The notes below the pieces were generated by a model. The model saw nothing but the letters and a program-made list of their open reading frames with translations. It was not told the DNA's origin and did not search any database. From contig WHVA01000182.1 in the NCBI GenBank assembly GCA_015179125.1, forward strand, positions 1 through 64,000: 64,000 nucleotides of DNA, read 5' to 3'. Position numbers and translations under genes: made by a program. Below are positions 638 through 61,030 of the stretch, one piece after another. Each line of letters begins with the position of its first letter. Position 1 is the stretch's first letter. Source of the DNA: Gautieria morchelliformis. Lineage: Eukaryota; Basidiomycota; Agaricomycetes; Gomphales; Gomphaceae.

Positions 638-668
638 AGGAGAACAGGGACAACAACCTACGCCAAGA

Positions 669-3600: not shown

Positions 3601-4647
3601 CCAGCCTTCCACGCAAGGATCCCGCAGGATAAAACGCAAGCAGCGGAAGAGATCGCAGCAGAAGAGGCGGACGTGGTGGTGTACTCAGATGGATCTTGCA
3701 TAGACGGGGGGGTAGGGGCCGCCGCAGTGCTATACAGAAACGGCATAGAGCAGCGATCAGCAAGGCTTTATATGGGGACAGACCGGGAACACACAGTGTT
3801 TGAAGCGGAACTAATAGGAGCAGCTATCGGAGCCAAGATGCTGCGCACTGAGAGAGGGTCGAGATATGCAATAGCCACAGACAATCAGGCCGCGATCCAG
3901 ACGACACGAAGGGAGAAAGCTATATCTGGACAGTATTTAGTCAACGCGCTCCACAGACAGGTCCAAGGTATCGTGGATTATCGACCAGGAGCGAGAGTAG
4001 TCATGAGATGGGTACCCGGACACGAGGGGATAGAGGGCAACGAGAGGGCGGATGAGGAGGCCAAAAAAGCAGCGAAAGGGGAGTCGAGTGAGGAATGGCA
4101 AATACCTATCGAATGCAGGGGGGTGCTGCCAATAAGTAGGGCGGCTGAGGTCCAGAGGAAAGGCGTAGAACTGAAGAGAGAAGCGAGGGAAATGTTCGCC
4201 AAATCACCGAGAGCACGTTTCGCACTAGAGATCGACCCAACCATGCCATCAGCGACTTTCTCGAAGATCACGAGGGGTATGCCTCGCCGGCATGCGAGTA
4301 TACTGGTGCAGCTCAGAACGGGACACGCAGCGCTCAACAAGTACCTTTACAAGATAGGAAGAGCAGATTCACCAAAGTGCCCGGCGTGTGGGAAGGCAGA
4401 CGAGACGGTCCACCATTATCTATTCCGATGCACGGCGTACAAAAAGCAAAGAAGGGAACTGGAAAGAAAATTGAGGGGAGGAGCGAGGTCAGTAAAGACG
4501 TTATTGGGAGGACACAAGACAATGCCGCACCTATTCAAATATGTGCATGACACGAAAAGGTTTGAACAGCCATACGGAAACCTAACGCTACCAGAGAAAG
4601 GAGACGGAGATAAGAAGAAGGGAAACGGGAAAAGGAAGAGGAAATGA
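669..4647 (+). pseudogene. LINE ORF2 polyprotein: endonuclease, reverse transcriptase, RNase H, zinc finger
   Basis: Starts at ATG 669. The endonuclease part (about 700-1420) shows the AP-endonuclease pattern, including IQEPY, GDFNRHHPLWD and SDHFPV. The reverse transcriptase (about 2050-3000) shows NPFKAPGDSGIPN, YRPIALLDT, DQGCPLS and the catalytic box FVDD at 2785-2796. RNase H (about 3675-4080) keeps YSDGS, FEAE, ATDNQ and NERADE, so all four acidic positions of the family are present. A C-terminal finger begins CPACGK at 4378. Three breaks split the protein: a frame change near 945, TAA at 1964-1966 and a frame change near 2527. Downstream of 2527 the frame is open to the stop at 4645-4647. 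Confidence 0.92.
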
Positions 4648-4841
4648 GAGGAAGGAAACGTCACCACACCCTCGCCCATACAGGCACGGACAAGCTCGGG
4701 GCTTCGCCCCACGAGCGTAAGCGGAGACAGAAGGAAAAAGGGGAAAGGAACCGAATCAGTCGAAAGCTGTATATACCGTCTTACATAGGGCACGGCCCCA
4801 AAAGACGTAAAACATGGAAAAAAAAAAAAAAAAAAAAAAAA

Positions 4842-6499
4842 TGGTCAGCCTGTCATACACGTCCGCAGTGTGACTCAAAGTGTGCCTGATCTCTGCTGTT
4901 AGACGTGCTTATTATCACGCTGAGTCGCACACGCTCACAGCACAACTCCCCGTCGCGCAATGCACAGGTGGCGCTGGATATATCGGAACCTGGAGACGTG
5001 CGTCAAGACTCACCAAGGAACGTATCACAAAGGAACACATCTCAACCACCCATCGCAGAAACGTCTCGAATTGAATGCAGCAAGGAACATCCGAATAAAA
5101 CATGCATCGCAAAGTTAACCCAACGAGGGAAAAAAAGGAAATGCAAAGGGACCATGGAGAAAAAGAGGGACACGAAAGGAACGCAACCAATGAGAACGCA
5201 CCCTAGTGCGGGACCGCGTACGAGTACGCGTGGACCAGCTTATACTGCGTTGGCGCGAAGCAGAGGAATGCCGCGTGCTGGTTGTGGGAGCGCGCAGCGG
5301 CGGCGGGGAGGGGACTAGGGGAGGGGGGTGTTAGTAGAGTTGATAGGAGGGTGGGGGGAGAGAGTGGGTGGTGAGTACGGGGGAGCACGAAATGCGGCAC
5401 GAAACCGCGGGTCGGGCCAGGGGGGAGAGAAAACGACCAGGAGCAACATATGAAAAATAACGACGCAACGAAAGGAAACGCGACTCACAAGCCCCCGGTC
5501 CCAGCGTGCCCGACGCGCCACCAACGCAGTGTCCACTCGCGCGGTTTTCGAACTCGCCGAGGAGGGTACGCCGGTTGTGGCCCCTGTCTCAGGCATCAGG
5601 CGCAGCGCGCAGCGGGGGGGGGGGCGGCGACGAGACACTGAGCGAGGGTTCGCGAGAGATCAATTCACTTACATGTACACACACCGTCAGAACCGCAACA
5701 AAGCGAGACGGCAGGCGTGGGACCCACCTCGACGCTCACGCCGCGGGCGGCGCGGACGAATAGCCGGGGATGCCGAGCTGGCTGAGGACGTGGGCCATCG
5801 AGAGGCGCTACGGGGACGGGGTAGCGTGAGCGTAAGGGGTCGTGGGAAAGGCGGGTGGGAAGCGTGTCGCGTGGATGCGAACGGGAGGAATACAGGTGTC
5901 AGCAAGCTACTCCAGAAAGCGCAAAATCGGCATCAAGCCCAGGGAACGCACGCCACACTCACATACAGAGACCTCTCGGTGCCATCGCCGCCCCCAGCGG
6001 GACCCTCACGCCATACCAATAATCTCGAGGTCAGCACAGAGAACAGCACTATGTGCGCGAGGACAGGAGTGCAAAGCCACGTGGGCCCGGAGACGGGCGG
6101 CGGTAGTCGGGGGCGGGGAATGAGGTTCGAGAGGCTTGTCCGTACGGGGTCGGGTATGCTGGGAGGTAAGTGAGGGAGTCGTCGTGTGTGCGGGCTATCT
6201 GCGGGGAGATCAGCGTCGGAAGGAAACGCGATCCTGACACACGCACAGCAGCGCCCTGGCTGGCCATCGCTCTCTCCGGTATCGGGTCGAAAAGGTCGAG
6301 TGTGCGGTCGTCCGCTGGAAGGAAGTCGGGCGGGACGGGCGGTGTGCACCGTGCGGATGCGTCTGTCACGTCACACGTGCGTGAGAATCGATATCGATGC
6401 ATCGATGCCGGCGCGGCGCTCCTTCCTTTGTACGCTTCGTCCAGTTGTGTGTGCCGCCTCTCCTTTGAGAATGCCGACGCCAATCCACACCCAGCGCCC
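4842..6499. other. GC-rich stretch with no supported gene
   Basis: Between the LINE tail and the TATA motif at 6504 there are open frames on both strands. None shows a recognisable domain, none has a paralogue in the window, and overlapping frames on opposite strands are equally long, as expected for GC-rich non-coding DNA. The part 5300-5400 is a purine-rich GGGGA/GGGTG tract on the + strand. I call nothing here. Confidence 0.6.
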
Positions 6500-6503
6500 A
6501 TAC

Positions 6504-6510
6504 TATAAAA
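6504..6510 (+). promoter_or_regulatory. TATA-like box
   Basis: TATAAAA sits in a GC-rich context. It is followed about 30-70 nt downstream by a C/T-rich stretch (about 6536-6580) of the kind often seen at fungal transcription starts, and by an ATG at 6616. The downstream frame covers the first part of the inverted-repeat arm described next. No product is recognised, so this is only a candidate promoter. Confidence 0.3.
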
Positions 6511-6667
6511 CACCGCGCGAGCACACCCTGTCAGCCCGTCTCTTCTCCCTCTGCGACTGTCTCGTCGTCCGAGCCCCTTGTGAGAGGATACTCCGGTTAG
6601 CGGGAAGAGGGTCTATGTGGAGCACGGATGTGACGACACAGTTTCCGGACCTGATATCTCAAACCAG

Positions 6668-8035
6668 TAAAGCTCAGACTGACGTTATTTTGTATTCCAA
6701 CCCACTCGGTGATGCTCCAGTCGGAGGACCGTCGCAAATAGCACCTGGATGGTCTCCAGACCGAAGAGATCACAAAGACACGCGAATAGGAGTGCCAATT
6801 CCCTTTGCCTCTGGTCCATATGCTTGTCGAACAATCAGGTGGGTGCGATGTTCTCGTCAGTCAGTCGGCGTTCACTCATCACATAACCAGGGCCGGCCTT
6901 CAAGGTGAGCCATCCCCGTAGTTGAGCTACACAAACCCTTGCTGATGCGTGTATTTTGAATAGAGGCACAGAAAGCTGACCTGGTTCGAAAGTAACCCTT
7001 GGGTGTTTAACTTATTTTTATTTCCACTTAGAAGTCGTTTCCAGGTTCACCAAACGAGATAGAAGGCCACTCGACCCGCCGCCTGTTGTCCGGCCTCTGA
7101 AAGTGGTTTTTATCGGCACCCCACGTCCCATGTGCATGAATTCGGCTTTACTCACAGGTCTTCAGTTCGTACAGGCAGATCCTACGTTGCAAAATTTTGT
7201 GTCAGCGAGTCAGAAGGAGACATTGGACGCACAGAGAACACAAAAAAGGTGACTTCGTCTCCATCCAAGCCCTTGATTGGGGCGGCACGAGCGAACGTCG
7301 TACCAAACAACGACTCTGTAACCTTGCTTTCTTCGGCAGGTGGCATAGGGGCGACAAGTGTAGGGGGTGGAGCGTCCGAAGCCCCGAAGAGCCTTCACCA
7401 GAACTACCCACCGGCCTTAACTGAGGATAAGGCGTAGGTCGAGTAGAGTAAAGATCGACATGACAAATTAGTCCCCCAACCTCGAGTTGTCTGCCAATCC
7501 AAAAATTGTGGTCAGCACGACTAAAAACAGAGGCAAAGGGCATACTCAGCTGGCAAGTCCTGTTCGGTGGGATGATCGGTTTTGGCATTAAACACTTGCT
7601 ACATTCGTAAACAACAGGCGGCGGGTCGGCCGGCCTTCTATCTCATTTGGCGAACCTGGAAACTTCTTCTAAGTGCACATAAAAAAATTAAGTTCAACAC
7701 CCAAGGGTTACTTTCGACCCAGGTCAGCTTTCTTTTCCTCTATTCCTCATATATGAATCAGCGAGGGTTTGTGTAGCTCAACTATGGAGATGGCTCACCT
7801 TGAAGCTCAGCTCTAGTTACCTGATGAGTGAACACTGACTTCCTGACGAGAAAATCACACCCACCGGACAGTTTGACCACCATATGGACCTGAGGCAAAA
7901 AGAATTGGCATTTCTATTCATGTGTCATTGTGATCTCTTGACCCTCCAGGCGCTATTTGCGACAGTCCTCCGACCGGAGCGTTACGGAGTGGGTTGGGAT
8001 ACTGTACTCACAAAAGAACGTCAGTCTGAGCTCGA
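6668..8035. repeat. Large imperfect inverted repeat (arms about 430 bp, spacer about 510 bp)
   Basis: The stretch 6668-7100 is repeated in reverse complement at about 7612-8035. The arms look roughly 85-90% alike by eye, with small indels. Within both arms several GT...AG intervals of 45-60 nt are conserved, for example GTGAGCCATC...ATAG and GTAACCCTTG...TTAG. The arms may therefore carry the exons of one duplicated short gene segment; the encoded peptide is not recognised. The 510 bp spacer holds a frame containing LQFVQADPTLQNFVSASQ, also unrecognised. It is unclear whether this is a duplicated gene in palindromic arrangement or a foldback element. I found no target duplication. Confidence 0.7.
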
Positions 8036-8311
8036 CATTTGCAACAGTGAACTCGCTCACCGGATCCAGGAACTTTGGCGTGATCAACGTACAACAGCAC
8101 CCAGTCCTTAATGGGGTGTGGGGTGGCGTAGAGGGCACGACGATCTCAGCAAGACGGGAGAGAGTGAAGTACCACGTACCGCTGTCATACCTTGGGGATG
8201 CCGCACACACCAGGGCTGCAGGGAGGGCCTTTCCCTCGTTCCATTACATAGTATGTGGGTATGATCCACAATTCAGTTGTGCAGTTGTGGCGCATCACGA
8301 GAGTGGTGGTG

Positions 8312-8319
8312 TATATAAA
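8312..8319 (+). promoter_or_regulatory. TATA-like box upstream of the broken NLR-like gene
   Basis: TATATAAA lies about 130 nt upstream of the first sequence that matches the paralogous C2-NACHT-WD40 gene (8445). It is on the same strand, so it could be the original core promoter. No equivalent motif was recognised in front of the paralogue at 34760, which weakens the assignment. Confidence 0.25.
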
Positions 8320-8444
8320 TCACACAGCAGCACCCACACGGACACACACTGCCAATATCTGTCGTACCCAGGCGTGCACGCTCACGATTCACTGCAAGGC
8401 ACGACATGATATGCACTGTTGCCTCTGAGACACGGAAGCTGTAC

Positions 8445-8526
8445 TTACGAAGACGGCCGAGTACTTACCTACGGAGACGAGGCGGCCACATCGACGGGCG
8501 CTTGACATTGACGCCGGGAACCTATA
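8445..8526 (+). pseudogene. 5' end piece of C2-NACHT-WD40 gene, cut by the KDZ element
   Basis: This short piece matches the reverse complement of about 34640-34715, the 5' part of the second C2-NACHT-WD40 gene. Shared blocks include AGACGGCCGAGTACTTA, CACATCGACGGGCGCTT and ATTGACGCCGGG, each with zero to one mismatch. The match stops at about 8518 and the KDZ terminal repeat begins at 8527. On the other side of the element the match to the same paralogue resumes at about 21547. This is therefore the upstream end of the gene whose other parts lie at 21547-22798 and 30325-33178. Confidence 0.75.
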
Positions 8527-9412
8527 GGCAACTGACGCCGGTTGTATTTGGACCGTACAGCCGGCTGTAAATACATGTACGACCTGCTGTAACATACACG
8601 CGCGCTTAGACCAAGCGCGCATTTGCCTATGGTGCACATGCCCCGTCTCCCAACTCCAAGCACACTACCGTGCACACGCACCGTCCCGGGCAGCCTCCAC
8701 GTACGGTGCACACGCGCCGTACCCGGTGTCCACGTACGGTGCACACGCACTGAAACCACATCGCAGTACGGTGCACACGCGCCATCCCCGGCCTCCACGT
8801 ACGGTGCACGCGCACTCAAACCACCTCGCAGGACGGTGCACGCGCACTAAAGCCACCTCGCAGTACGGTGCACACGCACCGTCCCGGGCAGCCTCCACGT
8901 ACGGTGCACACGCACCGTCCCCGGCCTCCACATACGGTGCACGCGCACTGAAACCACCTCGCAGGACGGTGCACACGCACTAAAGCCACCTCGCAGTACG
9001 GTGCACACGCACCGTCCCGGGCAGCCTCCACGTACGGTGCACACGCACCGTCCCCGGCCTCCACATACGGTGCACGCGCACGTCCACGTACGGTGCACAC
9101 GCACTGAAGCCGCCTCGCAGTACGGTGCACACGCGCCGTCCCCGGCCTCCACGTACGGTGCACGTGCACTGAAACCACCTCGCAGTACGATGCACACGCG
9201 CCGTACCCGGAGTCCACGTACGGTGCACACGCACTGAAGCCACCTCACAGTAGGTGCACACGCGCCGTCCCCGACCTCCACGTACGGTGCACACGCACTG
9301 AAGCCACCTCGCAGTACCGTGCACACGCGCCGTACCCGGTGTCCACGTACGGTGCACCCGCACTGAAGCCGCCTCGCAGTAGTCCACCCCCTCCAGTGCA
9401 CATGCACCGTAT
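8527..9412. repeat. KDZ left terminal inverted repeat with minisatellite array
   Basis: The outer 135 bp (8527-8661) are unique sequence. From about 8666 to 9412 the DNA is an array of roughly 30-33 bp units, each centred on GTACGGTGCACACGC. Two main unit types alternate irregularly: one continues into a GAARCCACCTCGCAGTACG segment, the other into a CCCCGGCCTCCACGTACG segment. The right end of the element holds the same array in the opposite orientation, but longer. Open frames across the array on both strands are a product of the periodicity and are not genes. In other large transposons such arrays are transposase-binding sites; that is an inference here. Confidence 0.9.
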
Positions 9413-9728
9413 CTAGAACCAAAGTGGCGTCCCCAGGGGTTCCTCCTCATCTGAGAGAGCGCGGAAAGGGCGGCGCTGGCAGATCAGTTCGGACCAGCCA
9501 CGGATCCCGCCCCTTCCTGCTGCGCGAGGCGGAAGGGGGCAGCTAACGGACGTGAGGTCATTACCGAGGGGATGCCTCCTAAGGCGGGCATGCTCGTGCT
9601 CATTGGATTGATGCGCCGTGGGGGTACATCCTTGTGGTCTGCCCCTGAGGGATTTGACATATCCATCAAGAATCACGAATTAGTGAGTCCCCTTGGGTCT
9701 TACGGTCCCTGAATAAACTTGTCATACC

Positions 9729-9840
9729 GTTGGCCGTACCAAAGACGGAGTGGAAGGCAAACATGCGACGCGTGTCGCTGAGTGATCACGTGACACGGTG
9801 GGGACACCCGCATTGCCTTGTGCATGTCCAACGGGGCCGC
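9729..9840. repeat. KDZ inner inverted repeat, left copy
   Basis: Inside the terminal array a further patch matches the reverse complement of about 19760-19875. Shared features include GCAAACATGCG, GACGCGT and TGATCACGTGACACG in the same order with small gaps. It flanks the coding region symmetrically, so the inverted-repeat structure of the element has at least two layers. A role as an inner transposase or accessory-protein binding site is possible but not shown. Confidence 0.6.
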
Positions 9841-10085
9841 CCCAGTTGTTCAGCCACGGGCCTTGTCCGCACGCACGTCAGGGCCTTGATGACACTGGTC
9901 CACAAAGACCAGATGCCAACCCAAGTAATAGGTTTGTATCCCTCGTGACCAGGATCATATCGCGAGGGATATCTGGTCCCAGCAGATGGGCGGCATATGC
10001 TATTGTGGGGGATGTATGTATGTCTCTTCAGTTGAATAATAAGTTGTTACATGACACGCTGACTACTTGATCTATGTAGGTCTCT

Positions 10086-13000
10086 TCAGAAGGATGATGC
10101 CACGCTGGCTACTTGGGAATCACATAACGCCCGGTCACCATAATCACCTTGCGTCACGCGAGGGCGCACTGTCAAAGTCCGCGTGAGACGGGCAGGTGGA
10201 GGTGTCTGGTAGAGCAGGCTTACATCAATTTGCTGGTCAGATTGTTCCGAGAGTGATGTGAGTTTGCCCTCATAGTACTCAATGACTTTGTGATAACGGG
10301 CGCGCGCGGCTTCAGCTTGCGTGTGGGTGCCGGCCCACCAATCCTCTAACTCCAAGCCTGTATCTCGCTCGTACGCGGTCTTCACGAAGAGTCGCATGCG
10401 TGGGTCCATGACTTGGCCTCGGAGTGACTCGCCCAGTGTCTGGGCTTCATCCGAGGCACCGGTCACTACTCGCCATCGTTTCCACATCGCGAATTCAAAC
10501 AATACAGCATCTTCCTCGCAGCCGCAATGGCAATAGCCATCCTCGCGGGGGATGCCCTGCCGCCTCGTGCGGTTTACAGCGCGTCCAGATGTATCTGTAC
10601 CTGTGACCCAGTACCCTCGCCCCCCCCCTTCGAAAACGTTCTTTTTTTGGCATACTTGCCATGCAATGGGCACAGGACATTGCCGTGACTTGTGGTCAAG
10701 AAGGCCAGCGAGACCTCGCGGCTTGTCAGGGCAGCTTCAGGGAGAAACCCTTGGACGGTGCAAGCCAGCTGGCGAATCTTCCCCGGTATAGTCACCCCGC
10801 GGGGTTCAGGGCGGTTGAGGTCGGCGACGTATTTCCGGATGGCTAGAAGGCCGCGCACTGCGAGCATGGGCATCAGTAGGACAGAGCAGGTAAGTTGCTC
10901 ACTGGTGTAGAGCGACATGTCTCCCATGTCTTTTCCAGGTCGGGGATGAGGATCGCGTGGGGTGGCCCGGGCTCTGCACATACCAAGGCCAACTCGTATG
11001 AGCCTCTGGGCCATGCGAGTTGGTCAGAACCTACCTCTTTTGTTCACGGGCCTCTGGCTGTCATGTTCTTCGTCGGTGTCCTCGTTTGAGGATGTGGTTG
11101 GACAGCTGTCACCTGCATCTGCCGCCGACTTGATGCTGGACCGGTGGGTGGCCCCATCGTCCGTGTCCCCAGTGGTTTCTGGTGTTCCACGGCGGCGCTT
11201 TTCTGGGGTCGCGGGACCTTGGTCAAACAAACATGCTGGGAGTGGCTGTTGCACGCACCTGCACCTGCACTCTGGGCCGAGGATGAGGGGCTGTGCGTGG
11301 CACACTTGCCCAGACCATGCAAGCCCCTGCTGGTCACCGGGGGCATCATGGCGTCATAAAGCGCCTGAGTGTGCCTAAGGGCTTGGGCCGCGTCATCAAC
11401 AGCCTCTGGAGGATGGGAGGGTGGTCAGGATGGGGCCTGGCGATGGTTAGGGTGTGGGGCATACACACTCTTTGAGCCCCCTTTCATGCGTCGCCGTCTC
11501 TTGTCTTGCACCTCCTGTACGTGGTCACGTGCGGCTACCAGTTGCCTCTCGATGTCCTTGGGGCTATGTGAGGTGTTGGGTTGGGACATCTGGGAGATGT
11601 CAAGGGGATGCAGACAGGCGGTGGACATGGGCGTATGGGGAGTGGGAGATGGTGCCAAGGCGGCGGGCTCCTAGGCCACGTTAGGGAGGTATGGAGCAGA
11701 AATTATATCTGTTTCTTTCAACGGTCTACAAACAGCGTCGCTCGTCATTGTGTGTGGGATATGGAGCAGTAAAATCAACATATGCTATTTGTGGAGGGGA
11801 ATGATGGGGGGCTCATATGTCCATGGTCTGCAAAGGCCGCCAACCAACATCAAGAATGGCAGGCGAGTCCTGATCAGGCTCGGCCTAGGCCCCATGAGGG
11901 CGCCTAGTGCACATTGGGAGGTGGCCAAATTCGGCCTCGTAGGCTGAGACGAGAGCCTCAGCACGGTCTTTTTCGAGCACCACTTGCTGGTGCTCACCCT
12001 CCAGCTGCCTCAGAGCCTTGCTGAGGTCCAGGGCCTCCCGCCGCCGGGATTGCCGGAGCGCCGTGGCGATTTTGAGGAAAGCCCCGCCTAAATCATCTGC
12101 GCCGGTGGCATCATCCTCACGAAGCCTGGGACTGGAGTAGTGAACTGGGGGCAGGGTGGCCCCAGGGTGGTGAGCACCAAGGAACAACCAGCACCCAGTC
12201 TCCGCCGCCACACTTTTGGACTGGGGTGCAATAGTGAGTAGCAGTCCGGCCTTGTGCAAACTGGACCTACCCTGATGGCGAGGTCCTCTATCAGGCGGGC
12301 AAAGCGTGTGCTGCGTTTTGTCCCATCAGATTCGGGTGGGTGGATCAGACGGGACCGTCGGAGGGCTGAACGGAAACGGGTTAGGGACCCTGTGGGCCGT
12401 GACATAGATATTCAACCACTTACCCCATGGAGCATACCCACGCATGAGCCCCTCCACGTGGCCATATGCTGGGTTTGCACGGGTTACGCGGACCCGTTGG
12501 CCCGATCGCCCTGCATAGGCTGAGGGAGAACCCACGCCCATGGTTCTCTCCACGGTAGGCTCGGACACTTCAGGCCCATGGGGTGTGTGGGTCACTGGGG
12601 GCGTGTGTGTGGCATCGGTGCCCATCAGGGGGCCAGGAAGGCCCCCGGTGGTCGCCGAAACGGGGAGAGGACCTGGGGCCACAAATGGGTCCCAGGTCTG
12701 TATGTGCACTGCAGGGGCCACAGGGCAACCACTGGCGGTATCTTGCAAGTGTGTGGGATGTCCAGGAGGTGAGGGCTGCTCGGGGGTTAGGGGATGATCC
12801 GGCGACATGAGACTGCCCGGACATGGTGACAGGGCGGGCTCAGGCGCCCCTAACGACCTCATGTCCAGCCACCTCTGGGTTGGCGTGCGTGTGGGGCGGA
12901 GGTTGTACGTGCTTGGGCGGTTACCAGGGCCCAAGGGAGATGAAAGTGGGCTGCAGGTCGTGCGGGGGGTGGTTGGGGGGGGCAGGGCCTTCGCCATCTG

Positions 13001-13236
13001 GGAGCGTGGCAATGACAGTGGGCGGTTGGGCGGGTGATTCTAGGCCCAGGCCCTGGAGTCGGTGTGTGTTGAGGCTTCATGAGCCGGAGGTGGACCAAGG
13101 GGAGCCACGCGAACTCACCTGCAGGTAGACACGACCTGTCTTCGTATGGGGGCATTGGTTGCGCAAGGGCCGCCCAGGGCAGATGCGGCACCGGTGGGGC
13201 ATGGGCCGCGTCGTCTCTTATCCGTGTAGTTGACAT
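10086..13236 (-). CDS. KDZ element accessory gene, coiled-coil protein of unknown function
   Basis: A spliced minus-strand gene is the best reading of a chain of open segments. The likely start, MSTTRIRDDAAH, is at 13236. Next come proline-rich exons (about 13010-12400), a segment around 12370-11900 containing CWLFLGAHHPG, YSSPRLR and a predicted coiled coil (LSKALRQLEGEHQQVVLEKD), and a basic KRRRRMK motif near 11520. The last exons (11010-10086) are rich in acidic and aromatic residues and include GYCHCGCEED. Exon borders such as GTAGGTCCAG...CCCCAG are plausible, but I did not fix every one. The gene is divergent from the transposase and lies wholly inside the element, so it probably travels with it. 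I do not recognise the fold. A DNA-binding or transposition-helper role is inferred only from position, the coiled coil and the basic patch. The final exon frame ends near 10086. Confidence 0.55.
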
Positions 13237-13391
13237 GGCAGAGAGGGAATGGGAGGGCGGGGTTGGGTGCAGGGTTGGGTGCAGGGTTGGTGCGGTCCGG
13301 AGGCAGAGGTCAATAGGACAAAATGTGCTCATGGTCAAGACAAGCGAGCCGCCAAGTGCAAAGGGTACGCACACTTAAAAGTGCCAAAAGC

Positions 13392-13580
13392 AGGGCGGTC
13401 GAGCGAGGGCCGCAGAGCTGGACACGGAGGGTTCATTGGCAGGCCCCGGGTGCGAGCTGGGCGGTCCCGCGAGGGCGGCAGAGCTGTAGACGGAGGGAGC
13501 AGCCTGAGGTCCCGGGTGCTGGTGGGGCGGTCCCACGAGGGCGCCAGAGCTGTCCCCAACCGCACCCCAATTGCTCGAGA
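13392..13580. repeat. About 66-bp tandem repeat, just under three copies
   Basis: The block GGCGGTCNAGCGAGGGC...AGAGCTG recurs with a spacing of about 66 bp starting near 13394, 13460 and 13526, with a few substitutions between copies. It lies just upstream of the accessory gene, between it and the captured host fragments. Open frames through it are probably a result of the period being a multiple of three. Confidence 0.6.
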
Positions 13581-13837
13581 TAGAAATTCCACACCGAGAT
13601 ATGTCACGGGATTCAACGCCGGCGAGCTGGATGTCCTGCCGCCTTCGAAAATAGCCGAGGGGTTCAGTAATGCAGTTGACAGACAAGACATGGTGCATGA
13701 AGACCATTGGGATGCATGCCATGCATCCGAGTCAGTAGCGATCACAGGAAGCTCGACACCGAACGTGACCGCCGTGGGCTATGGAGTGCCTGTCTGGCAA
13801 GCACGATCATTCATATGCTGAGGTCATACGAACAACA

Positions 13838-14430
13838 GCTCGTTGCCACTGGGAGCGGAGGCGCGTCCTCAATGTTAGGAAGTGCACTCTTTTCTCCAGT
13901 GGATGGATTGGCGTCTAGCCATTGATCCATCTCGTCTGAGAGACCAGCGAATGGTCGCTTTCCAAGCAACGAGATCCTATCCTCTGTGCGAGCAAACTCG
14001 GCGTGAGCTAGCTATATAAACAGTTGACGTCTGGACCTACCGCGTTAATATCTCCTTTTCTAATAACCGCTGCGCAACCTTCTCGACCGACGAACATTTA
14101 TCCGTTAGGAATTCTGTTGTTCGACGATGTGCAAGGCTGCCAGGACCGCCGGTTAGACAGGCAACGACACAGGATAAGCTCAACAGAACCACGTACTTGA
14201 TCATCTCCCACACTTCATTGTCCAGCATCTCCCCAGTCTTCTCACTGAAAGGCTTCTGAAATGTCTCCCGTTGGCCCACACCTCCGCCATAACTTACAGG
14301 TCCAACGATAGCGTTCATGCCATAATTTGCTACTGCCTCGAACGCCATGCGCGTGATTTTCTGCAGATTGTCCTGCGTGCCTGTGGTGATCTGATCTGTA
14401 CCAAAGAAAATCTCCTCGGAGATCTGACTG
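13838..14430 (-). pseudogene. YTA12: Captured 3' fragment of an m-AAA mitochondrial protease gene (Yta12/Afg3 family)
   Basis: Read on the minus strand, three exons give the C-terminal part of the M41 peptidase half of an m-AAA protease. The first contains SEEIFFGTDQITTGTQDN, MAFEAVANYGMN, GPVSYGG and QKPFSEKTGEMLD. The second contains AHRRTTEFL and VEKVAQRLLEKEILTR. The third contains LLGKRPFAG and WLDANPSTGEKSALP. Introns at 14137-14196 (GTACGT...GGCAG) and about 13975-14031 (GTAGGT...CACAG) are retained, so this is a piece of genomic DNA and not a cDNA copy. In yeast the family degrades and processes inner-membrane mitochondrial proteins. The AAA ATPase part and the HExxH zinc site are absent, so the fragment cannot be active. 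At 14430 it joins directly to the phosphatidylserine decarboxylase fragment in the same orientation. Confidence 0.85.
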
Positions 14431-16275
14431 CAACTATCTCGAAGGCCATCATACGACAGTCTGCGCCACTTACGAGGACTGTTGGGTCATCCGGACTGTC
14501 TACGGGGCGCGCGGACTCCTGGAGTTTGCGATAGAAGAATTGGTTGAAGGTTTCTAGACACAAAATTAGTCGTATTTCATTCCTTGCTTGATGGACATTG
14601 ACTTGAGCAGGCCACGTGCTAAAAATGAGGGCAGTATTAGACGAGGATCAGCCGTGAGCAACGTGGAGTACCTCGATGGCCTTCCATTCTACTTGTCGCA
14701 CCCTGTATTAAGTAGTCAACAAAAAAGTAACCAATATTTTGAACCTGGTCAAACCTTGTACAGTAATCGAATGCCTAATCGCACATATACTTGCATCTTT
14801 TCTTCTTCTAGTTGGCCAGTCAACCTATTTTGGACGATAATCTTCGCTGAGTTCTCTAGAAGTGGCATCAAGGTATGGCGAAGAACCACTAGAATGCGCT
14901 TACCGCTCCCAGCTGGTACGTGCCACTTGACACCTTCGTAATGACTTTGGTGTACCATTTGCGCCGTGCCTGGCTAGCAGTGACAAAGATTCCAACAACA
15001 ATGTCAACTCTCCCAATCACGACTCGCACATAATGCAATATGTGTTACTATGTCCGCCTCCGCCCTTGATTTTAAACGATGTCGATGGCAAAGTGGACAA
15101 TTTTCAATATTAATCACACGCTCCACAACGTCGTCAGACTTTCCAGAAGAGTCCTCCGCCTCAGAAGATGATACAGAAGATTGATGCATGTCTGAGGTCG
15201 CTAATGAACCTCCCGTCACACCGGGTCCTAACCCAGTGGTGGAAGAAGATGAAGACGTGGTGAAAGAAGGGGGTACAAGCTCAGACAAAGGCTGCTGGGG
15301 GGGTTCACTGAAATGGACTGGTGCCTGGATCGAATCGCTACCAGATGATTCACCGCCCCCCAGATGGGGCACTTGTTGCAATAATGGACCAGGAAAATTC
15401 AGTCTATCGAGGACAGGAGGAAGCGAAAAGTCTCTGGGGAGGAAACCTGGGGTTACAGAGGCGCACGAGTCGAAGTGGGGTGCGTTGTCGTCTGATATAC
15501 GTTTCTTCTCAGACCTTGGATGCACGAGCTCCTGCTCGAGACACATGACAACTTCATCAAATGATAGCTCCCCGTCAATGGGCTTTCTGTGCCTGGTTAA
15601 GAAGCTATCGACGGTTTCCCTGCTTGTCCCAATCTAGAATCGTGAAATGAACCTTGAAATTCGACTCATACCGGCGAACGTGGAACCAAAGTTTCTCGTC
15701 CCAGGTCGGGTTGAGAGAATGGTGAATGACGCGTGTACAGAACACTTTCTTTCCGAACGACACGACAACGAAAGGATCCATATCCCAGCCTAACCGTGTC
15801 ACTAAAATAATTCCATTTCCAATCAATGGCATCGAAGGTGACTTACGATTCTTTAGCTTAGGCCCCAATCTAGAATCGTGAAATGAACCTTGAAATTCGA
15901 CTCGTACCGGCGAACGTCATCGAAGGTGACTTACGATTCTTTAGCTTAGGCAAATCTTTAGCACTCTGAACTTCTAGCATAACAATACCCAGAATATCAT
16001 TACCAGCAGAAAGATTATATTCCGTATTTCTTGCTCACCAGGGCCTTCGGAATTTTAATCTTTTACCCTTGACAACTACATCCGGTGAAAGAATAGGTGT
16101 TGTCTCCGATGTGGCGCCCGAGTCTTGCGATATCGGGCTGGACGATTGTCCCCGATGAAACTTGGGGATGAAGCTGGCCGAAAGGGGCCTATGAGGTTTG
16201 ACTCTCTCTGGTCCCGGTGATTGGGCCCCGGATTTAGAGATGACCGAGCGTTCCTGGTATCAGCGCTAGTTGTTA
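14431..16275 (-). pseudogene. PSD2: Captured fragment of a C2-domain phosphatidylserine decarboxylase gene (Psd2 type)
   Basis: Minus-strand exons spell out most of a fungal Psd2-like protein. A serine-rich N-terminal part ends in KGKRLKFRRPW (to 16039). The C2 domain shows ILGIVMLEVQSAKDLPKLKN and DPFVVVSFGKKVF, then SLNPTWDEKLWFHVRRYE. A low-complexity linker leads to CPLCHRHRLKSRAEADIVTH. Next come IIVQNRLTGQLEEEKMQVYV, then FNQFFYRKL, ARPVDSPDDP and SGADCRMMAFEI. Psd2 enzymes make phosphatidylethanolamine from phosphatidylserine in Golgi or endosomal membranes. The fragment stops before the LGST-type self-cleavage site that forms the pyruvoyl group, so it would be inactive even if expressed. 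Introns are kept, for example a 52-nt one near 14710-14761. Several frames are broken and part of the C2 exon is locally duplicated. Confidence 0.85.
15634..15960. repeat. Short local duplication within the captured C2 exon
   Basis: The sequence at about 15630-15675 (CCCAATCTAGAATCGTGAAA onward) recurs at about 15865-15917 with one or two changes. A second block, CATCGAAGGTGACTTACGAT, occurs at 15831 and 15918. This is an imperfect local duplication that breaks the C2 exon of the captured gene, so it happened during or after capture. Confidence 0.7.
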
Positions 16276-16383
16276 TCTAGGCGACTCGTAACAATCGACT
16301 GGTCACTGCTTGCTCACCTACCACATGCCTAAGAACGCACCCTTTAGGTACCCGCGTCCCCCTGGAGGGGGGCCCAACCCGCG

Positions 16384-19295
16384 ATGCATTACCCGCAGCC
16401 CCCAGGTGGGGGTGGCCTCTCCCCGCAGAAACGGGCACGTGCGGATTCAGGAAGGTGGCACTGTATGTCTGAGCCGCCAACAGGAACGACCCGCGGTCGT
16501 AGGATCAGATGTGATGGGGAAGGTGTGGGGCGTGCACAGGCCTTGGACGACTCACGTGACACCGAGCACCTGGAGTGGGACGCTTTCGTGAGCGCCCTTG
16601 AGAGTGGAGGCATGGGTATCTATCCCTTGTCTCCCAATATTTTCGTGGTCCAAGGGTGGAATGGGAAGCTTTCCCGAGCTACAGTGCGTTCTGTGATGGG
16701 TCTCTCCCTCCCATCAAGAGTGACAGCCGCCACAGAACCACTGGTACCACTTGCAGAGGTCAGCCATTGGTGAGGACGTCGCACTGGCATGTGCGTGCCC
16801 CAAAGGCCCCACAGCATGCCTGCACGCGGTGTTGGTGAAGGCACTTCTGTTCCAGGGCATCGACTGTGATGATGCCCCAGGTGATCTCGTCACCTCAATA
16901 TCACGGCTGTCTGGCGATCAACTGACTACCTAAGCAGGCACGTCCGACAATGTCATATTATTCCTGAGGGATGCATCAAGTGTCCCTCAAGAATATCTTT
17001 TCTCTGTGGCCGCCCACCATGGGCTGGGACTTAAAGGCCACACCATAGTCACACACCGAGGCGATGAGGGAGACCCTGGGGTGTGGCGCTGTGACCACCA
17101 TGCCACCAGCGGGGATTGCCCTCACATTGCCCGGGCGCGGCAGCACTTGCACCTGCTGCGGGCCAGCGACCCCAAGCTCACTGAGGTAATGACACCCGAG
17201 CAAGGGGTGCCACTGATGGGCACTGCTGTACCTGGTGCGTGCGATGATACCTATGATTGCAACTGCCTCGCCGCAATCTGATGCACAGATCGGGTCGACA
17301 TGCCCCCTGCCCCAGAGTCGACCTCCGCTGACTGCGAGCGATCTGTGTCGTACCACACAGTCCCGCTCCCTGTGTGGGCGGCCCTCCCGGGCAAGGATAG
17401 CCATGACTCGCTCGCGCGCACGGCGCTCTGTCCCCCGGCCCTGTTGGCACTCGAGGCAAGCTCACGGTGCGCATGGCACCCTCAGATAACAGTCATGCCG
17501 GGACACCAGGGCATCAAACCCCTTGAGTGCACGATTTACACCCTGACATGCACTTTGGACCGTGTCATGCAGGTGGTGCGATGCCCCAGTTGCCCTGCAC
17601 GCAGATGGCGTTCTTGCGGCCCAGACCTGGGCACACTGGGCCTGTTTAATTACAACAATCACTCCGTGTTTACACATGAACTCCTAGATGAATACACTAG
17701 TGCGTACACACTCGCTGAAACTCCATTCAGCGCATGGACACAAGGAGTTGTGAGAAGGTACATGATACACGGTTCCAGCAGACCCTTTGTGTCGGTCGAA
17801 GTCTTCCGTAACGTATGGTTCTCATACGTTCATCTGCAGGCATGGACTTCACCCAAGGCCTGTCCCGTGTGCGGGCCATCGCCCGCGGCAACGATATGGG
17901 ACGGCATAACCCTTGCTTACAACAAGAAGCACCTTTTGGCCTCTTTGCAACCACCCACGCAGATCCACCCAGATGTGCCCCAACGACCGGACAGGAGGTC
18001 CCAGCCCCACCAAGCTCCCATCGCGGACAAGGGCCTGCGTCATGACCTCCGCATTGCCATCTCACATGGCAAGTCGACGCGAGTCCCCCATGGCTCCGAA
18101 TCGGACGACGCCATGCACACCGGGTCCCCAGCAGGCCCGGATCCCCCTGAGGGCCAGCCGCCAGCTTGGGACAACCACGTAGGCCTCGTCAACCGTCTGC
18201 AGCAGGTATGTCCCGCCCTTGCGACCCTTTTCGAGGTGTTGGAGGCCACCACGGAAACCCGACGGGGCGGCCCTAAGGCCCACGCCATCACCGCGTTTTT
18301 GAGGGAAGTGAGTACACTCCATTTACTTACACCACTGCACACTGACTGCCCATGGCCCAGTGTGCCATGGAGGAATCTATCCTGCAGTTCGTTCCGCCGC
18401 ACGCGCACGCAGCCTTGGACCGGTTCATCACTGAAGGTGGCCACCACTCTGCATCCATTCTGTCCAGTGTCCCAGCAATCAGTAATCTCATCACTGTGTG
18501 GCAGTCAGAGAATCCCAGGTTGCCTCGCGTGGCATATGATGCAATTGCATGGGTCCTCATGCGCTCCCGAGAAGTGTGGCAGCTGGTCCTTGGTGCAGAC
18601 CGCACGCAATCACCTTCCGCATCCATGGAGGCCTTGGACTGGCACCAGGTGAGTCACTGCTCCAACAGCCAGGGCGGCAGATGTTCACACAATGTCGCCA
18701 GACTGGGACATGGTACACACAGCGCCCCGTTCGCCAGCGCCCCTCCTACCCACTGCTGCGCCATGACACCCGAAATGAGCCCTCAGGCGACCGCGGTGGG
18801 AAGTGCTCGAAATTTTTCGGGAGCTACAAAACGCAGGGCCTAACCGGTGGCATCATGTGCTGCTTGTGCACACACTCTGTCTGCTATGGATTCCATTGCA
18901 TCCTGAGTGGGGAGGGACACAATGATGTCTTTTCCGCGTTGTTCACGAGGTGGGAGGTTGCCCCCAAACTCGTCGTGTATGATTTCGCCTGCGCCCTCGC
19001 ACCATATTGCATGACACGTGAGCCTGCCTTCTTTGCAGACATCCTCTTTGCTGTGGATGATTTTCACTCTGGTGGTCATACCAAGTGCTCACCTTCCTCG
19101 TTCTTGTCAACTTACGCAGCTCTCGACCCACGCCTGGCAGCCGTGAACACGAGTGCGGCTGAGTGTGGTAACAGCGGCCTCAACCGCATACGCAAAGGGG
19201 TGAGCTACATGATGCAAGGACGGGCCGTAGTATACACTCAGGTCTTTGTAAGTGTATGGAACAGGCTGAAAATCCAGCGCATGGCGATGGGATAG
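16384..19295 (+). CDS. KDZ transposase (spliced)
   Basis: A DDE-type transposase of the Kyakuja-Dileera-Zisupton superfamily. Consistent exons are 16751-16880 (3' part of an upstream exon), 16938-17234, 17289-18307, 18361-18648 and 18702-19295. They join in frame through introns of 53-57 nt with GT...AG borders, giving 775 uninterrupted codons to the stop at 19295. Recognisable parts are a SWIM-like zinc site (WRCDHHATSGDCPHI), a CxC cysteine cluster (CPSCPARRW), GLFNYNNHSVFTHELLDEYT and FSYVHLQAW. Further along are CPVCG followed by IWDGITLAYNKKHLL (with a likely catalytic Asp), LTGGIMCCLCTHSVCYGFHC and VVYDFACALAPYC. The C-terminal part has VDDFHSGGHTKCS, NTSAAECGNSGLNRIRK and VWNRLKIQR. 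The N-terminal start is not settled: the frame at 16384-16773 is probably a first exon, but its splice to the 16751 frame is uncertain. Compared with the family it looks near full length and possibly functional. Confidence 0.85.
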
Positions 19296-20123
19296 ACCAA
19301 TGGGGCCCATCCCCAACTGACACACTCTCATTTGTTCTTACTCTGGATAGCTTAGTTGAATGTGATTCCTGCTCTATGAATTACATAGATTAATTTGTAC
19401 TCCATGCCCACAGGCACTGGACATGCGCCTCACCCGACGACCCAGGTGCTTTCATGGCTTAGAATACGCACACGCAGTGCGAGTGCGTGAATCTGAAATT
19501 GGTTCATCCATTCATTGCTTAAAATCCTAATGCGCACACCGCACACGTGCAGATGCTAACATGGATGCCATGTTAGAAAGGACCTGATCCAGGTCCTTTC
19601 ATTCCCCCCTTAGAGTGCTACCACACATGCAGACCAGTTCCAAGACATTAATAAATATATATTTATGCCAAAGAGATATACATCAGTGTCAATGGCATTG
19701 GTGGTACATCTGTGAGGACCAGTACCGCGTGGATGAGGCCCAGGTGAACGTGAGCATCCCCCTCGGACATGCACGTGATCAGGATGCCACGCGTGTCTCC
19801 AGCGTGTCACGTGATCAACGCGTCGCACGCCACGCATGTTTGCTTCTCACTGCGTCTTGGGTACGGTCACCGGTGAGCAAAGTTCATTGCGGGTCCATAA
19901 ATAATAAGGGGGACTGACTATATTCAAGAAATGTCCAGTCACTGTCTACCTCTCATCTTGCCGCAGGGAGAACGGCCATCGATTCAACCCCCACAGCGCA
20001 AGCTGATGACCTTGAGTGTGGCGGCCTTAGGTGCCGTTCACTGGCTGATGCTTTCACGCCCTATTACCTACCACCTTCTAACTACCGCCTTCTACCTCAG
20101 GAGATGGCGGCGGAACCCGCGGC
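19296..20123. repeat. KDZ right internal spacer with inner inverted repeat (19760-19875)
   Basis: No gene is seen here. The part 19760-19875 is the reverse-complement partner of 9729-9840, with shared CACGTGATCA and CATGTTTGC blocks. The rest (19300-19740) is AT-richer sequence just after the transposase stop and probably its 3' untranslated region. AATAAA-like strings near 19650 (AATAAATATAT) could serve as a polyadenylation signal. Confidence 0.5.
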
Positions 20124-21530
20124 TTGTGCACCGTACGTTGGGGCCGGTGGGGTGCGTGTGCACGCTACGTGGAGCTGCGTTGCCCACCGTACGTTGGGGC
20201 CGGGGATGGTGTGTGTGCACGGTACGTGGAGCCGGGTTGGCCACGGCACTGCGAGGCGGCTTCAGTCCGTGTGCACCGTGCTGCGAGGCGGCTTCAGTGC
20301 GCGGATGGTGCGTGTGCACCGTACGTGGAGGCCGGCTTCAGTGCGGGTGCACCGTACGTGGACACCGGGTACGGCGTGTGTGCACCGTACTGCGAGGCGG
20401 CTTCAGTGGTCGTGCGCCGTACGTGGACGCCGGGGATGGTGCGTGTGCACCTTACGTGGAGGCCGGCTTCAGTGCGCGTGCAGCGTACGCGGAGGCCGGC
20501 TTCAGTGCGGGTGCACCGTACGTGGACGCCGGCTTCAGTGCGGGTGCACCGTACGTGGACACCGCGTGTGCACCGTCCTGCGAGGCGTGCGCGTGCACCG
20601 TATGTGGACACCGGGTACGGCGCGTGTGAACCGTACTGCGAGGTGGTTTCAGTGCGTGTGCACCGTACTGTGAGGCGGCTTCAGTGCGTGTGCACCGTAC
20701 GTGGAGGCTGCCCGGGACGGTGCTTGTGCACCGTACTGCGAGGTGGCTTTAGTGCATGTGCACCGTACGTGGCGGCCGGCTTCGGTGTCGGTGCGTGTGC
20801 ACCATACGTGGACGTGCGCGTGCACCGTATGTGGAGGCCGGGGACGGTGCATGTGCACCGTACGTGGAGGCTGCCCGGGACGGTGCGTGTGCACCGTACT
20901 GCGAGGTGGCTTTAGTGCGCGTGCACCGTCCTGCGAGGTGGCTTTAGTGCGCGTGCACCGTACGTGGAGGTCGGGGACGGCGCGTGTGCACCGTACTGCG
21001 AGGTGGTTTCAGTGCATGTGCACCGTAAGTGGACACCGGGTACGGCGCATGTGCACCGTACTGCGAGGCGGCTTCAGTGCGTGTGCACCGTACGTGGAGG
21101 CCGGCTTCGGTGCGTGTGCACCGTACTGCGAGGTGGCTTTAGTGCGTGTGCACCGTACGTGGAGGCTGCCCGGGACGGTGCGTGTGCACCCTACTGCGAG
21201 GTGGCTTTAGTGCGCGTGCACCGTCCTGCGAGGTGGTTTGAGTGCGCGTGCACCGTACGTGGAGGCCGGGGACGGCGCGTGTGCACCGTACTGCGAGGTG
21301 GTTTCAGTGCGTGTGCACCGTACGTGGACACCGGGTACGGCGCGTGTGCACCGTAGGTGGAGGCTGCCCGGGACGGTGCGTGTGCACGGTAGTGTGCTTG
21401 GAGTTGGGAGACGGGGCATGTGCACCATAGGCAAATGCGTGCTTGGTCTAAGCGCGCGTGTATATTACAGCAGGTCGTACATGTATTTACAGCCGGTTGT
21501 ACGGTCCAAATACAACCGGCGTCAGTTGCC
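20124..21530. repeat. KDZ right terminal inverted repeat with minisatellite array
   Basis: This is the inverted partner of 8527-9412. The array (about 20124-21396) consists of units centred on GCGTGTGCACCGTAC. It is about 1.27 kb long against about 0.75 kb on the left, so copy number differs between the ends while the outermost 130-230 bp stay nearly identical. The unique outer part ends at CAGTTGCC (21530). The long translations across it, rich in CTVRG and RVHRT strings, are repeat artefacts. Confidence 0.9.
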
Positions 21531-21546
21531 TGCCCCAACCTGTGGG

Positions 21547-26187: not shown

Positions 26188-26463
26188 TTGTTTTTCACCA
26201 GATGTAGGTATGGGGAGCGAGGAAGGTGATGAAGGTGAGAGGTTGGTTTGGTGATGAAGATGAGAGTGCGAAAGAACGTGCTTATATAACTCTGCGGAAG
26301 TCCAAATGACATTAGCAATTTTTTCTAGTCCCGCATGCAGGACAACTCACTCCGGGGCTTGAAAATTCTGTAAGAGGTAAGTGCGTTCTAATCCCAGAAG
26401 TGCGTTCTTGTTCTAATCCCAGAAGTGCGTTCTTGCTCTAATCCCACACCAGGACCATCCTCC

Positions 26464-29400
26464 ATGGCGGGCAAGGAACCGTGCCTCTGTGTGCCCTCTT
26501 GCACCAAGGCGCTGGGACGAGTTCAACGTGAACGTCACCGGAAGCGGGTGCAAGCTGCACTAGGCCGTGCAAGCGACTCGTCGGATACTGGAAGCCCTAG
26601 TAGCACCAGTGGAGATCCGGATGTGCTAAACTCAGTTCCAGGGGATTTCTATCGAGACGATGGTTCCCTCGTTCAAGATATAGATCTCGACAATCACGCC
26701 ATCGCATTCGATAATGAACTGGTCAATGATGACTACATTGCCGGCACTAACAGCTCAGACAGTGAGGCAGAAGATGCGGAGGGGCCAATCCCACCACTTG
26801 TTGAATCAGAGGATGAGAATGATGCTGAGGAAGAAGAGGTCGAAGATGAGATAACTGACGAAAACTTGGTGCAAGTACTTGAGGAGCGGTTTGGTGATCA
26901 ATGGAGAGAGCAGATGAACCAGCTTCGTAAGTGACATACCGTTCAATGACAGTGCAACGACTTACATTAGACATCAACCAGGAGGTGAACTGCTCACTGA
27001 TGCAGACCTAGATAACATCAGCGCCTTCGCATTGCGTATGGAGGGTTCAGGCCTCCCTCGTTCAACTTATCAAAACCTGCGGAAATTCTTTAGACACAAG
27101 CTGAATCTCGACTCCGAATACCTCATGTACCGTAGGATCGAGTTCCTATCTGGCGTCAAACCCACCTTTTACGACATGTGCAAGGTCTCCTGCTGCCTGT
27201 TCGCCGGTCCTCTTACAAACCGCACCGTATGCCCCTCCTGTGGGGCGGCACGCTACCACCTTAATGGCAAACCACTGGCACGATTCTCTTACCTGCCAAT
27301 CATCCCTCGAATCCAGGCTTGGTACGCGAGCCTTCCCATGATCGAACAGCTGAAGTACCGAAGTCATCACACACACACACCCGGCGAATATGCCGATGTA
27401 TTCGATAGGTCGAATTACCGCATAATGCTCAACTCGCGAGTAGTATTAGAGGGGATAGCACTCCCTCACAAGTATTTTTCTGATTCGAGGGACATTGCGT
27501 TCGGTGGATCTACAGATGGATTCCAGGTGAGTGTACAACAATTTATACACTGGCACAAGGCTCAAACAGCGGATAGATATTTGCTGTTCGGCCTGCGCTT
27601 GGCAAGCGCAAGAGTAACTCATCATGGCCACTTATCCTTGTCAACTTCAACTTACCACCTGAAATACGCACATGCACGGAAAATTTAATCTCCCTCGGCG
27701 TGATCCCCGGTCCCCACAGTCCCGATGCCCTCGACTCTTTTTTCTTCCCTTTCATCGAGGAATGCAAATTACTCGCACGTGGTGTCCGAACCTATGATGC
27801 GATCACAACGGAGAGCTTTGATTTACATGCGTATTTGATTACCTTTTCAGGTGACCTGCCGGCAATCTCAAAGCTCCTCTGTCTGCGTGGTCATGGTGCC
27901 TACTGCCCCTGCCGCTGCTGCCTAATCAAGGGTGAAAGGATACAGGGTACATCAAACACGAAGTACTACCCTGTCCTTGTACCTCCTCGACGGCGTGGCG
28001 AGCAACAGAAGGAGCCGTATGACCCCCTCAACCTTCCCCTGCGAACAAGGGAGAATTTGCAGCAACAACTCATTGAAATAAGCCAAGCGGCTGCTCTTGG
28101 TAGGCGTGATTTGGGGATGGAATACGGTATCAATCGCCTGTCCATGTTCTTGCACGTTCCATCCATCCATTTTCCTCAGTCATTTCCACACGACATAATG
28201 CATCTATTCTTCGAAAATATCTGCCCATCCTTAGTCGATCAGTGGACGGGCTCTCGCAAATTCAAAGGCCGAGCTCCTGTGGACCCTGGATTCCAAATAG
28301 CGTCCCACATATGGGAGCAGATCGGGCGTGAGACAGCCGAAGCATTCAAGACCATTCCCTCGGAATTCGTTGGAGCCATGCCCGATATCACCACTTCTAA
28401 ATATAAAGCAGAGTATTGGTCCTTTTGGTTCCAATATCTGGGGCCTGTTCTACTCCGCAATCGCTTCCCCAATGCCAAATATTAACGACATTATTGCGAC
28501 CTTGTGGCGATCATCAAACACTGTCTCCAGTTCACAATATCTGCGCAAGAAGTCGACGAGTTGGAGGCATCTATAATTAAATGGGTGGAGGAATATGAAA
28601 GGTATGACTTGCTTTCATCAAATTGAGTGATATCTCAGCGCATACCTGCAGGTGGTACTACGGGTATGACCAGAAGAATTTACGAGCGTGTAACTTCAAC
28701 ATCCACGCACTTCTTCATATCCCGGATTACATCCGGTGGTGTGGACTGGCTTGGACAACATGGGCATTCCCAATGGAGCGTTACTGCGGCAAGTTAGGCA
28801 CTCACATTACCTCACGGCTTCATCCCTATGCGACTCTAGCGATGTACGTCAAGCGCAGTGCGCAGCTCACACAGCTCAAAATGTGTTATTCGCGTGTCCG
28901 GGATCTGCTGTCCTCTGACCGGACCGAAGGAGAGCTTACAGCCACTGAGAAGCAATACGAAGCTTGTGAGTAAACACTGGCTCAACTTGTCTATTGTCAG
29001 CTAATTATTTCCTTGGTACAAAAGTCCCAAGCACTATACTGGGTTCCCCTCGTAAGCAAAACTTCCAACCAGATCAGGATCTGCGATGGCGCATATCTTT
29101 ATACTTTGCTCGGATCTACGATCGGGATGCCGCAGAGATCAGGAACCTGATTCCCCTCACTATGACACGATGGGGGAAGGTCCGCATTGCAAACGGTGGA
29201 GATAAAATACGAGCACGTTGTGCAGTAAGTCTTGCTCAAGCGCTATCAATTCGTGACTCCTCATTTATCCGGGTGCGTCTCATCTATTCATTCTTTGAGG
29301 TTACTTGAGACTAATTTAGTTTCTCAATAATCAGTATACACTCATGGTTGCCAATAACCATCGTGGCCACGATCAACCACCACAATGCCGTCAGATTTTT

Positions 29401-29694
29401 TACGGACAGCTGGACTGTATTCTCGACCTTGAACTCCCGGCGTCACGCACGCTCAACCTCGCGGAACCTACCCGCTTCTTACTCGCGGTCGTGATTCCTT
29501 GTTCGACTGGAGGACGGGACGCTACGTGCGAGGTTACGACATATTCAAATACCACCATGCCGATAGCAATTGATCTCCATACAGTGGAGTGCGTGGTCGG
29601 CCGAGTTCAACGCGGGAACGAGTGGGGGATTATCGACCGAAGTGGCGAATTTGCTCGCACAGTGTTCGTTGACCCCATGGATGATGAAGACTAG
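26464..29694 (+). pseudogene. CACTA transposase, Tnp2 family, one in-frame stop
   Basis: Start at ATG 26464 (MAGKEPCLCVPSCTKALG). Exons: 26464-26926, 26982-27526, 27577-28601, 28652-28965, then about 29002 to 29694 with one further intron near 29275-29335; phases agree. The N-terminal part is acidic. The transposase core shows SYLPIIPRIQAWYAS, STDGFQ, KRKSNSSWPLILVNFNLPPE, LISLGVIPGPHSPD, FSGDLPAISKLL and HGAYCPCRCC. Later come FPHDIMHLFFEN, NFNIHALLHIPDYIR, MERYCGK, WGKVRIANGGD and ECVVGRV. This is the Tnp2/EnSpm transposase of Agaricomycetes at full length. A TAA at 28483-28485 interrupts exon 3 where the frame otherwise continues (RHYCDLVAIIKHC), so this copy is probably inactive by a single recent mutation. 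Confidence 0.88.
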
Positions 29695-57700: not shown

Positions 57701-57754
57701 ATACACGGGTTATTTACACCCTCCCCTTCTATAGATAACTATAGGGGTTAACTA

Positions 57755-59146: not shown

Positions 59147-59149
59147 CGG

Positions 59150-61028: not shown

Positions 61029-61030
61029 GT

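Follow-up and report, generated by a model that had tools for sequence, protein, structure and literature searches.

How pieces of host genes came to lie within a KDZ transposon, in the space separating its two divergent genes, is the question raised by a locus of the basidiomycete Gautieria morchelliformis. The window, that is, the whole stretch of 64,000 nucleotides analysed here, is the start of contig C207 (C-numbers denote contigs of the 122 Mb genome), and a sequence-only reading of it had proposed that the KDZ element itself captured intron-bearing DNA of two unrelated genes. The KDZ element does carry such pieces, but its having collected them is unsupported, and this proposal was downgraded once parts of a second transposon family, here called N, were found to bracket the host DNA. 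The collector was probably a Pack-MULE-like N element, which would then have become nested between the KDZ genes and been carried, with its package, by the KDZ element to a second site on C366.

The outer transposon, element A, and its two genes are placed as follows.

8526 to 21531, no strand: element A, a KDZ-type DNA transposon with terminal inverted repeats (TIRs), KDZ/CxC4 domains and a second copy at C366
10086 to 13039, minus strand: left-hand gene of element A, comprising several open reading frames (ORFs)
16348 to 19295, plus strand: KDZ transposase gene, with a CxC4 cysteine cluster and a KDZ domain

KDZ transposons and TET/JBP genes have reportedly been surveyed by Iyer et al. The TIRs of element A occupy 8526-8915 and 21142-21531, with subterminal repeats internal to them, and its tips read AGGCAACTGACGCC. 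The two genes diverge, with the host DNA between them, and both had been taken for KDZ genes at first; this holds for the right-hand gene, which provides a transposase with the CxC cluster of KDZ transposons (CxC4 at E 1.3e-38 in a Pfam scan, the KDZ domain scoring 21.5 bits and thus below the cut-off of 26.6), whereas four scanned ORFs of the left-hand gene returned nothing significant from Pfam. The 7- or 8-bp target duplication of a KDZ transposon is absent beside the tips at 8526 and 21531, where the flanks were read by eye; element A is without a visible duplication of its own although its TIRs are 98% alike.

The host DNA in element A occupies 13550-16222 and comes from three unlinked loci on C179, C160 and C926, each of which is the only place outside the element found for its piece.

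13550 to 13842, no strand: host piece 1, 293 bp, matching C179:16013-16305 at 94.5%
13843 to 14422, minus strand: host piece 2, the last exons of an m-AAA protease gene, matching C160 at 96.2%
14423 to 14436, no strand: 14 bp of filler at the protease/decarboxylase junction
14437 to 16222, minus strand: host piece 3, the middle of a C2-type phosphatidylserine decarboxylase gene, matching C926 in blocks at 93.6-100%

The protease 3' end and the decarboxylase fragment had been recognized in the sequence-only reading, as had their fusion in one orientation near 14430, and both observations stand: Pfam matches to M41, PS_Dcarbxylase and C2 domains lie between the genes of the KDZ element, and the two pieces, both on the minus strand, meet at 14422|14437. 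That reading was also correct in treating the donor genes as unrelated, and their native adjacency, an outcome that it had named as refuting, was rejected because they lie unlinked on separate contigs (C160 and C926). It had counted two host genes where a third piece, from C179, is present as well, and it had set the limits at 13838-16275; the host DNA starts further to the left, at 13550, and 16223-16308 is transposon sequence. Piece 1 holds no Pfam domain, and its source is located downstream of an ORF whose domain is of the acyltransferase family (PF02458). In piece 2, M41 peptidase homology is found at 14037-14486 on the minus strand (E 8.2e-19, Pfam) and the final codons of the host gene are missing; the product of the donor gene on C160 has AAA, M41 and FtsH_ext domains, and AFG3-like protein 2 is its best relative of solved structure (E 2e-151). 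Compared with C160, piece 2 has 11 nonsynonymous, three synonymous and two intron substitutions and one 6-bp indel, a pattern to be expected of an unconstrained copy. On C926, the donor gene codes for a phosphatidylserine decarboxylase domain and two C2 domains, and it also matches EF-hands weakly. Piece 3 was said to be most of this gene, which is overstated, although the gene is indeed of the C2 type: it spans only the middle, beginning ahead of the second C2 domain and reaching 36 positions into the catalytic domain, which has 198 (C2 match at 15605-15916, E 7.5e-13; PS_Dcarbxylase match at 14330-14647, E 1.5e-5; both Pfam, minus strand). Relative to the host gene, piece 3 is short of 122 and 335 bp through internal deletions, gaps that were not matched to exact introns, and carries an 88-bp duplicated stretch (15864-15951) that is also present in the copies on C366, C1059 and C736.

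Introns are kept in both gene pieces, and the source was therefore genomic DNA, in agreement with the initial proposal. The protease piece retains both introns of its part of the gene, which measure 54 and 55 bp in the host; the window copy has 6 bp more in the first of them, and the spliced host frame stays open through both intron positions. In the decarboxylase piece, at least two GT-AG introns were read by eye on the minus strand, with starts at 14903 and 14754; the one starting at 14754 is 52 bp long and, also by eye, identical to that of the host.

The host DNA does not directly border the rest of element A, but is flanked by further foreign pieces.

13302 to 13381, no strand: repeat piece, up to 80 bp, matching eight places on C877, C375, C131 and C387 at 91-96%
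13389 to 13553, plus strand: left-internal piece of family N, matching C344 at 93.9%, where it lies ~490 bp inside the left end of N
16223 to 16308, plus strand: 86-bp right end of family N, up to the conserved terminus of N at 16308

The left-internal piece recurs wholly or partly in C344, C2, C25 and C515, and more weakly in C865. The left and right N pieces that enclose the host DNA in the window are ordered and oriented as they are in C2, C25 and C515. The repeat piece is unrelated to N and occupies the position expected for the left end of N; its loci on C877, C375, C131 and C387 resemble one another over 0.5-3 kb. The left TIR of N is absent from window positions 1-17000, and the 9-mer in the right flank, CTTGCTCAC, has no partner within one mismatch at a possible left boundary between 8400 and 13400; because the left end is gone, a target duplication of the window N copy cannot be shown. 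A later, separate insertion with its own target duplication had been named in advance as the result that would overturn capture by the KDZ element, and the N brackets largely provide it, the duplication being the part that is not demonstrable. In its arrangement the window copy of N has a Pack-MULE layout, with N parts enclosing the host DNA in their native order: intron-bearing genomic DNA from unlinked genes lies between an internal left piece and the right TIR of N, with the left TIR absent and no target duplication of the copy's own. The joins are of three kinds. The left-internal N piece and the C179 piece share 4 bp of microhomology (CTGT), the C179 and protease pieces are joined bluntly (0 bp), and the junction near 14430, where microhomology had been suggested as a point to check, holds the 14-bp filler instead; taken together, this would fit end joining or template switching.

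Family N was defined from its copies elsewhere in the genome. Its left TIR begins GAGT..CATAGTCGATTG... and its conserved right terminus, ...GGTCACTG, ends in CACTG; in the C2 copy the two TIRs match one another at 30 positions out of 37, and the similarity fades after ~37 bp. The left TIR was found in C344, C2, C25, C515 and C865, in the last of these without the first 8 bp. Perfect 9-bp target duplications flank six of the eight two-ended copies checked.

C515, 6.6 kb: 9-bp duplication CCAGACTTT
C2, 9.5 kb: 9-bp duplication ACTTTCTAT
C25, 9.3 kb: 9-bp duplication AGTTGGGAC
C861, 13.5 kb: 9-bp duplication TCATTTAAG
C324, 23 kb: 9-bp duplication CTGGAAAAC
C593, about 1461-1575, ~115 bp: perfect 9-bp duplication CGTCCCAAC

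The two other two-ended copies, on C548 (~170 bp) and C865, have no clean duplication. The copies on C593 (~115 bp) and C548 (282669-282836) consist of scarcely more than the two N ends and are MITE-like.

When the right end of N was searched against the genome with window positions 16200-16520, at least 31 places were found, which include four of the window lineage (window, C366, C1059 and C736) and leave 27 others. Among these 27, 21 matches stop at window positions 16308-16310, three end before this point and three run 2-13 bp further; in some, the match is confined to the outer 35-60 bp. Of 20 N loci, 17 were located with a terminus pattern, four of the 17 belonging to the window lineage, and the flanks past the terminus differ among the 13 non-lineage loci except for C240 and C756, which count as one site because they share one flank. 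At these two right ends, 39 of 40 bp of flank are shared and KDZ-type terminal repeats lie ~180 bp inward, so that a KDZ element has apparently inserted into N, with the nesting reversed.

Six N copies with the left end of N (C2, C25, C344, C861, C324 and C473) contain a protein-coding gene. It has no MULE match and nothing else significant in Pfam, and none of the 42 places in the genome that match PF10551 lies inside these six copies. We take the product to look MULE-like, a CxxH after a candidate D being a resemblance only. The duplications, 9 bp in six of eight copies, are within the 8-11 bp of MULEs, and TIRs are present, though shorter than typical, the TIRs of MULEs often being long. 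The DNA inside the right ends of N differs among copies: when 1.5-kb stretches inside 12 right ends were compared, eight of 66 pairs shared more than 100 bp, in a comparison that includes some flank DNA (mostly flank for C593), most left ends not having been located. The unique part of the C25 copy gave genome matches dominated by a common repeat. The C861 copy, which has a perfect 9-bp duplication, contains WD40-repeat sequence at C861:14300-17240 and C861:6608-7160, whose relatives form a large family that includes window positions 32467-33148; this sequence may represent another captured gene, or have been inserted instead. Besides this WD40 sequence, scans of eight N-locus stretches gave only a retrotransposon gag match below the cut-off, on C230.

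Other KDZ copies had been proposed as the place to look for the same fragments, and three have them. The C366 copy, whose left tip is identical to that of element A, contains all three host pieces and repeats every host-piece junction, with sequence differences of its own. It sits at a different site: the 677 bp outside its left tip gave no significant match to window positions 6000-8523 (best match at most 15 bp, E at least 0.16). A gypsy-type retrotransposon splits this element, and its right part is inverted. Two contigs, C1059 and C736, break off within the element; a derived junction at 14466 is common to C366, C1059 and C736, and because they share it with C366, C1059 and C736 are not independent events. 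Host cargo was seen only in this KDZ lineage (window, C366, C1059 and C736), and no N copy with the same host pieces was found outside it. A more distant KDZ relative on C446 matches both genes of element A in the same order, with a homologue of the left-hand gene part at 10089-11043 and a transposase that is 70% identical over 198 aa; its intergenic DNA is smaller, with ~5.5 kb between the compared points as against ~8.0 kb in the window. Five KDZ elements (C169, C456, C185, C220 and C337) are mostly 90-94% like element A and form a deletion-derivative family without ~12054-17016 and 17821-18421. They were considered as clean empty sites and rejected, and the one that was read, C169, is internally deleted, its first gap holding ~94 bp of unrelated filler; the most similar cargo-free relatives are not clean empty sites, because much more around the cargo is missing as well.

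The history that we consider probable begins with a non-autonomous, Pack-MULE-like copy of N that would have acquired copies of genomic DNA of three unlinked host loci in its interior; template switching during the repair of a break within N is the likeliest mechanism. With this cargo, it would have inserted into the intergenic region of the KDZ element's divergent genes, where the left end of the nested N would have been lost afterwards. The KDZ element would then have moved or been copied to the second site on C366 with N and cargo inside, and there the gypsy-type retrotransposon would later have split the KDZ copy, accompanied by rearrangement.

If a break in the KDZ element had been repaired as a patchwork, KDZ would instead be the collector, with five to six unrelated fragments (the 80-bp repeat piece, the left-internal N piece, the three host pieces and the N end) used as filler. 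We regard this as unlikely, even though it would accommodate the missing left TIR and duplication of N, a mosaic that starts with a non-N repeat piece, and the occurrence of filler at one junction and microhomology at another, and even though the C169 relative displays internal deletions and filler of just this kind. A right boundary that coincides with the N terminus is not expected of chance filler, nor are N pieces that stand on either side of the host DNA with their native order and orientation preserved, and chance would hardly achieve both. Slightly less likely again is that N entered the KDZ element empty and received the host pieces later, by break repair within the nested N. The junctions serve this sequence of events equally well, and the confinement of the cargo to the KDZ lineage speaks for it, but no intermediate was found; as it differs from our preferred history in event order alone, the probability that we assign to N as the collector includes it. 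An assembly chimera is highly improbable, since, for all that the contigs are repeat-rich and C1059 and C736 end within the element, every host-piece junction recurs in C366 with differences of its own and beside a different left flank. Helitron capture is the least credible: a mosaic of several fragments, with introns and a single conserved end, does resemble Helitron cargo as generally described, but canonical Helitrons have a CTRR 3' end and neither target duplications nor TIRs, and the TIRs, perfect 9-bp duplications and CACTG end of N, which has no CTRR end, refute its being one.

Pack-MULEs are well known in plants, and the capture of gene fragments by TIR transposons is documented mainly there. 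Those of rice and maize, as commonly portrayed, resemble N in having TIRs, duplications of ~9 bp and fragments of several unlinked genes, and N differs from them in its fungal host, its short TIRs and a gene unmatched by the Pfam MULE models, the window copy differing further in being one-ended and nested in a KDZ element. Rice Pack-MULE numbers and plant capture cases are reviewed in PMC13317346, and the term 'fung' is absent from its main text. According to the available part of PMC6446971, MULE duplications measure 8-11 bp and fungal MULEs are known, a table row giving 9-10 bp duplications and 22-bp TIRs for Mutyl; Hop/Mutyl-type MULEs, to which we liken N by their descriptions, without direct protein comparison, are fungal like N, and their capturing genes goes unmentioned in that part. 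TET/JBP genes are known from KDZ and other transposons of fungi, and such KDZ elements, like element A, combine a KDZ-class transposon with a non-transposase passenger; the TET/JBP passengers are thought to serve their element, and the duplications are 7 or 8 bp (PMC12730594, in part), whereas the passenger of element A would be a nested transposon with gene scraps. Among mushrooms, Helitron-captured genes are described in Pleurotus (PMC4289320, in part); this is likewise a mushroom transposon capturing gene fragments, though a rolling-circle element, unlike N. For capture in fungi, PMC10799480 (in part) lists Starships and Helitron-type helicases; Pack-MULEs come up there in connection with rice. 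A limited literature search, with many subscription papers outside it, found no fungal Pack-MULE.

It is conceivable, if rather doubtful, that a fungal TIR family outside the transposase models that were tried makes Pack-MULE-like collections of host gene fragments, with KDZ elements as second-level carriers that spread them through the genome, so that genes are shuffled in a nested way by two unrelated transposases. A mushroom-type genome with a TIR family that has 9-bp duplications and seems to contain DNA of three host loci, in a package moved by a second transposon, would indicate that gene shuffling of this sort extends beyond plants; its steps are testable through the duplications and the known donors. 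The locus also illustrates how a nested insertion can be mistaken for capture by the outer element.

The remainder of the window contains several other elements. A non-LTR-type retrotransposon (RT and RNase H) lies at 2308-4647, a tnp2/Plavaka-like transposon at 26392-29694 (PF02992 in 27577-28485) and a NACHT/NLR-like gene with WD40 repeats at 30570-33178, read by eye, its WD40 part having been matched in a search. At 57506-64000 there is a gypsy-type retrotransposon, called from integrase, RT and chromodomain-like ORFs read by eye, that is a relative of the one splitting the KDZ copy on C366.
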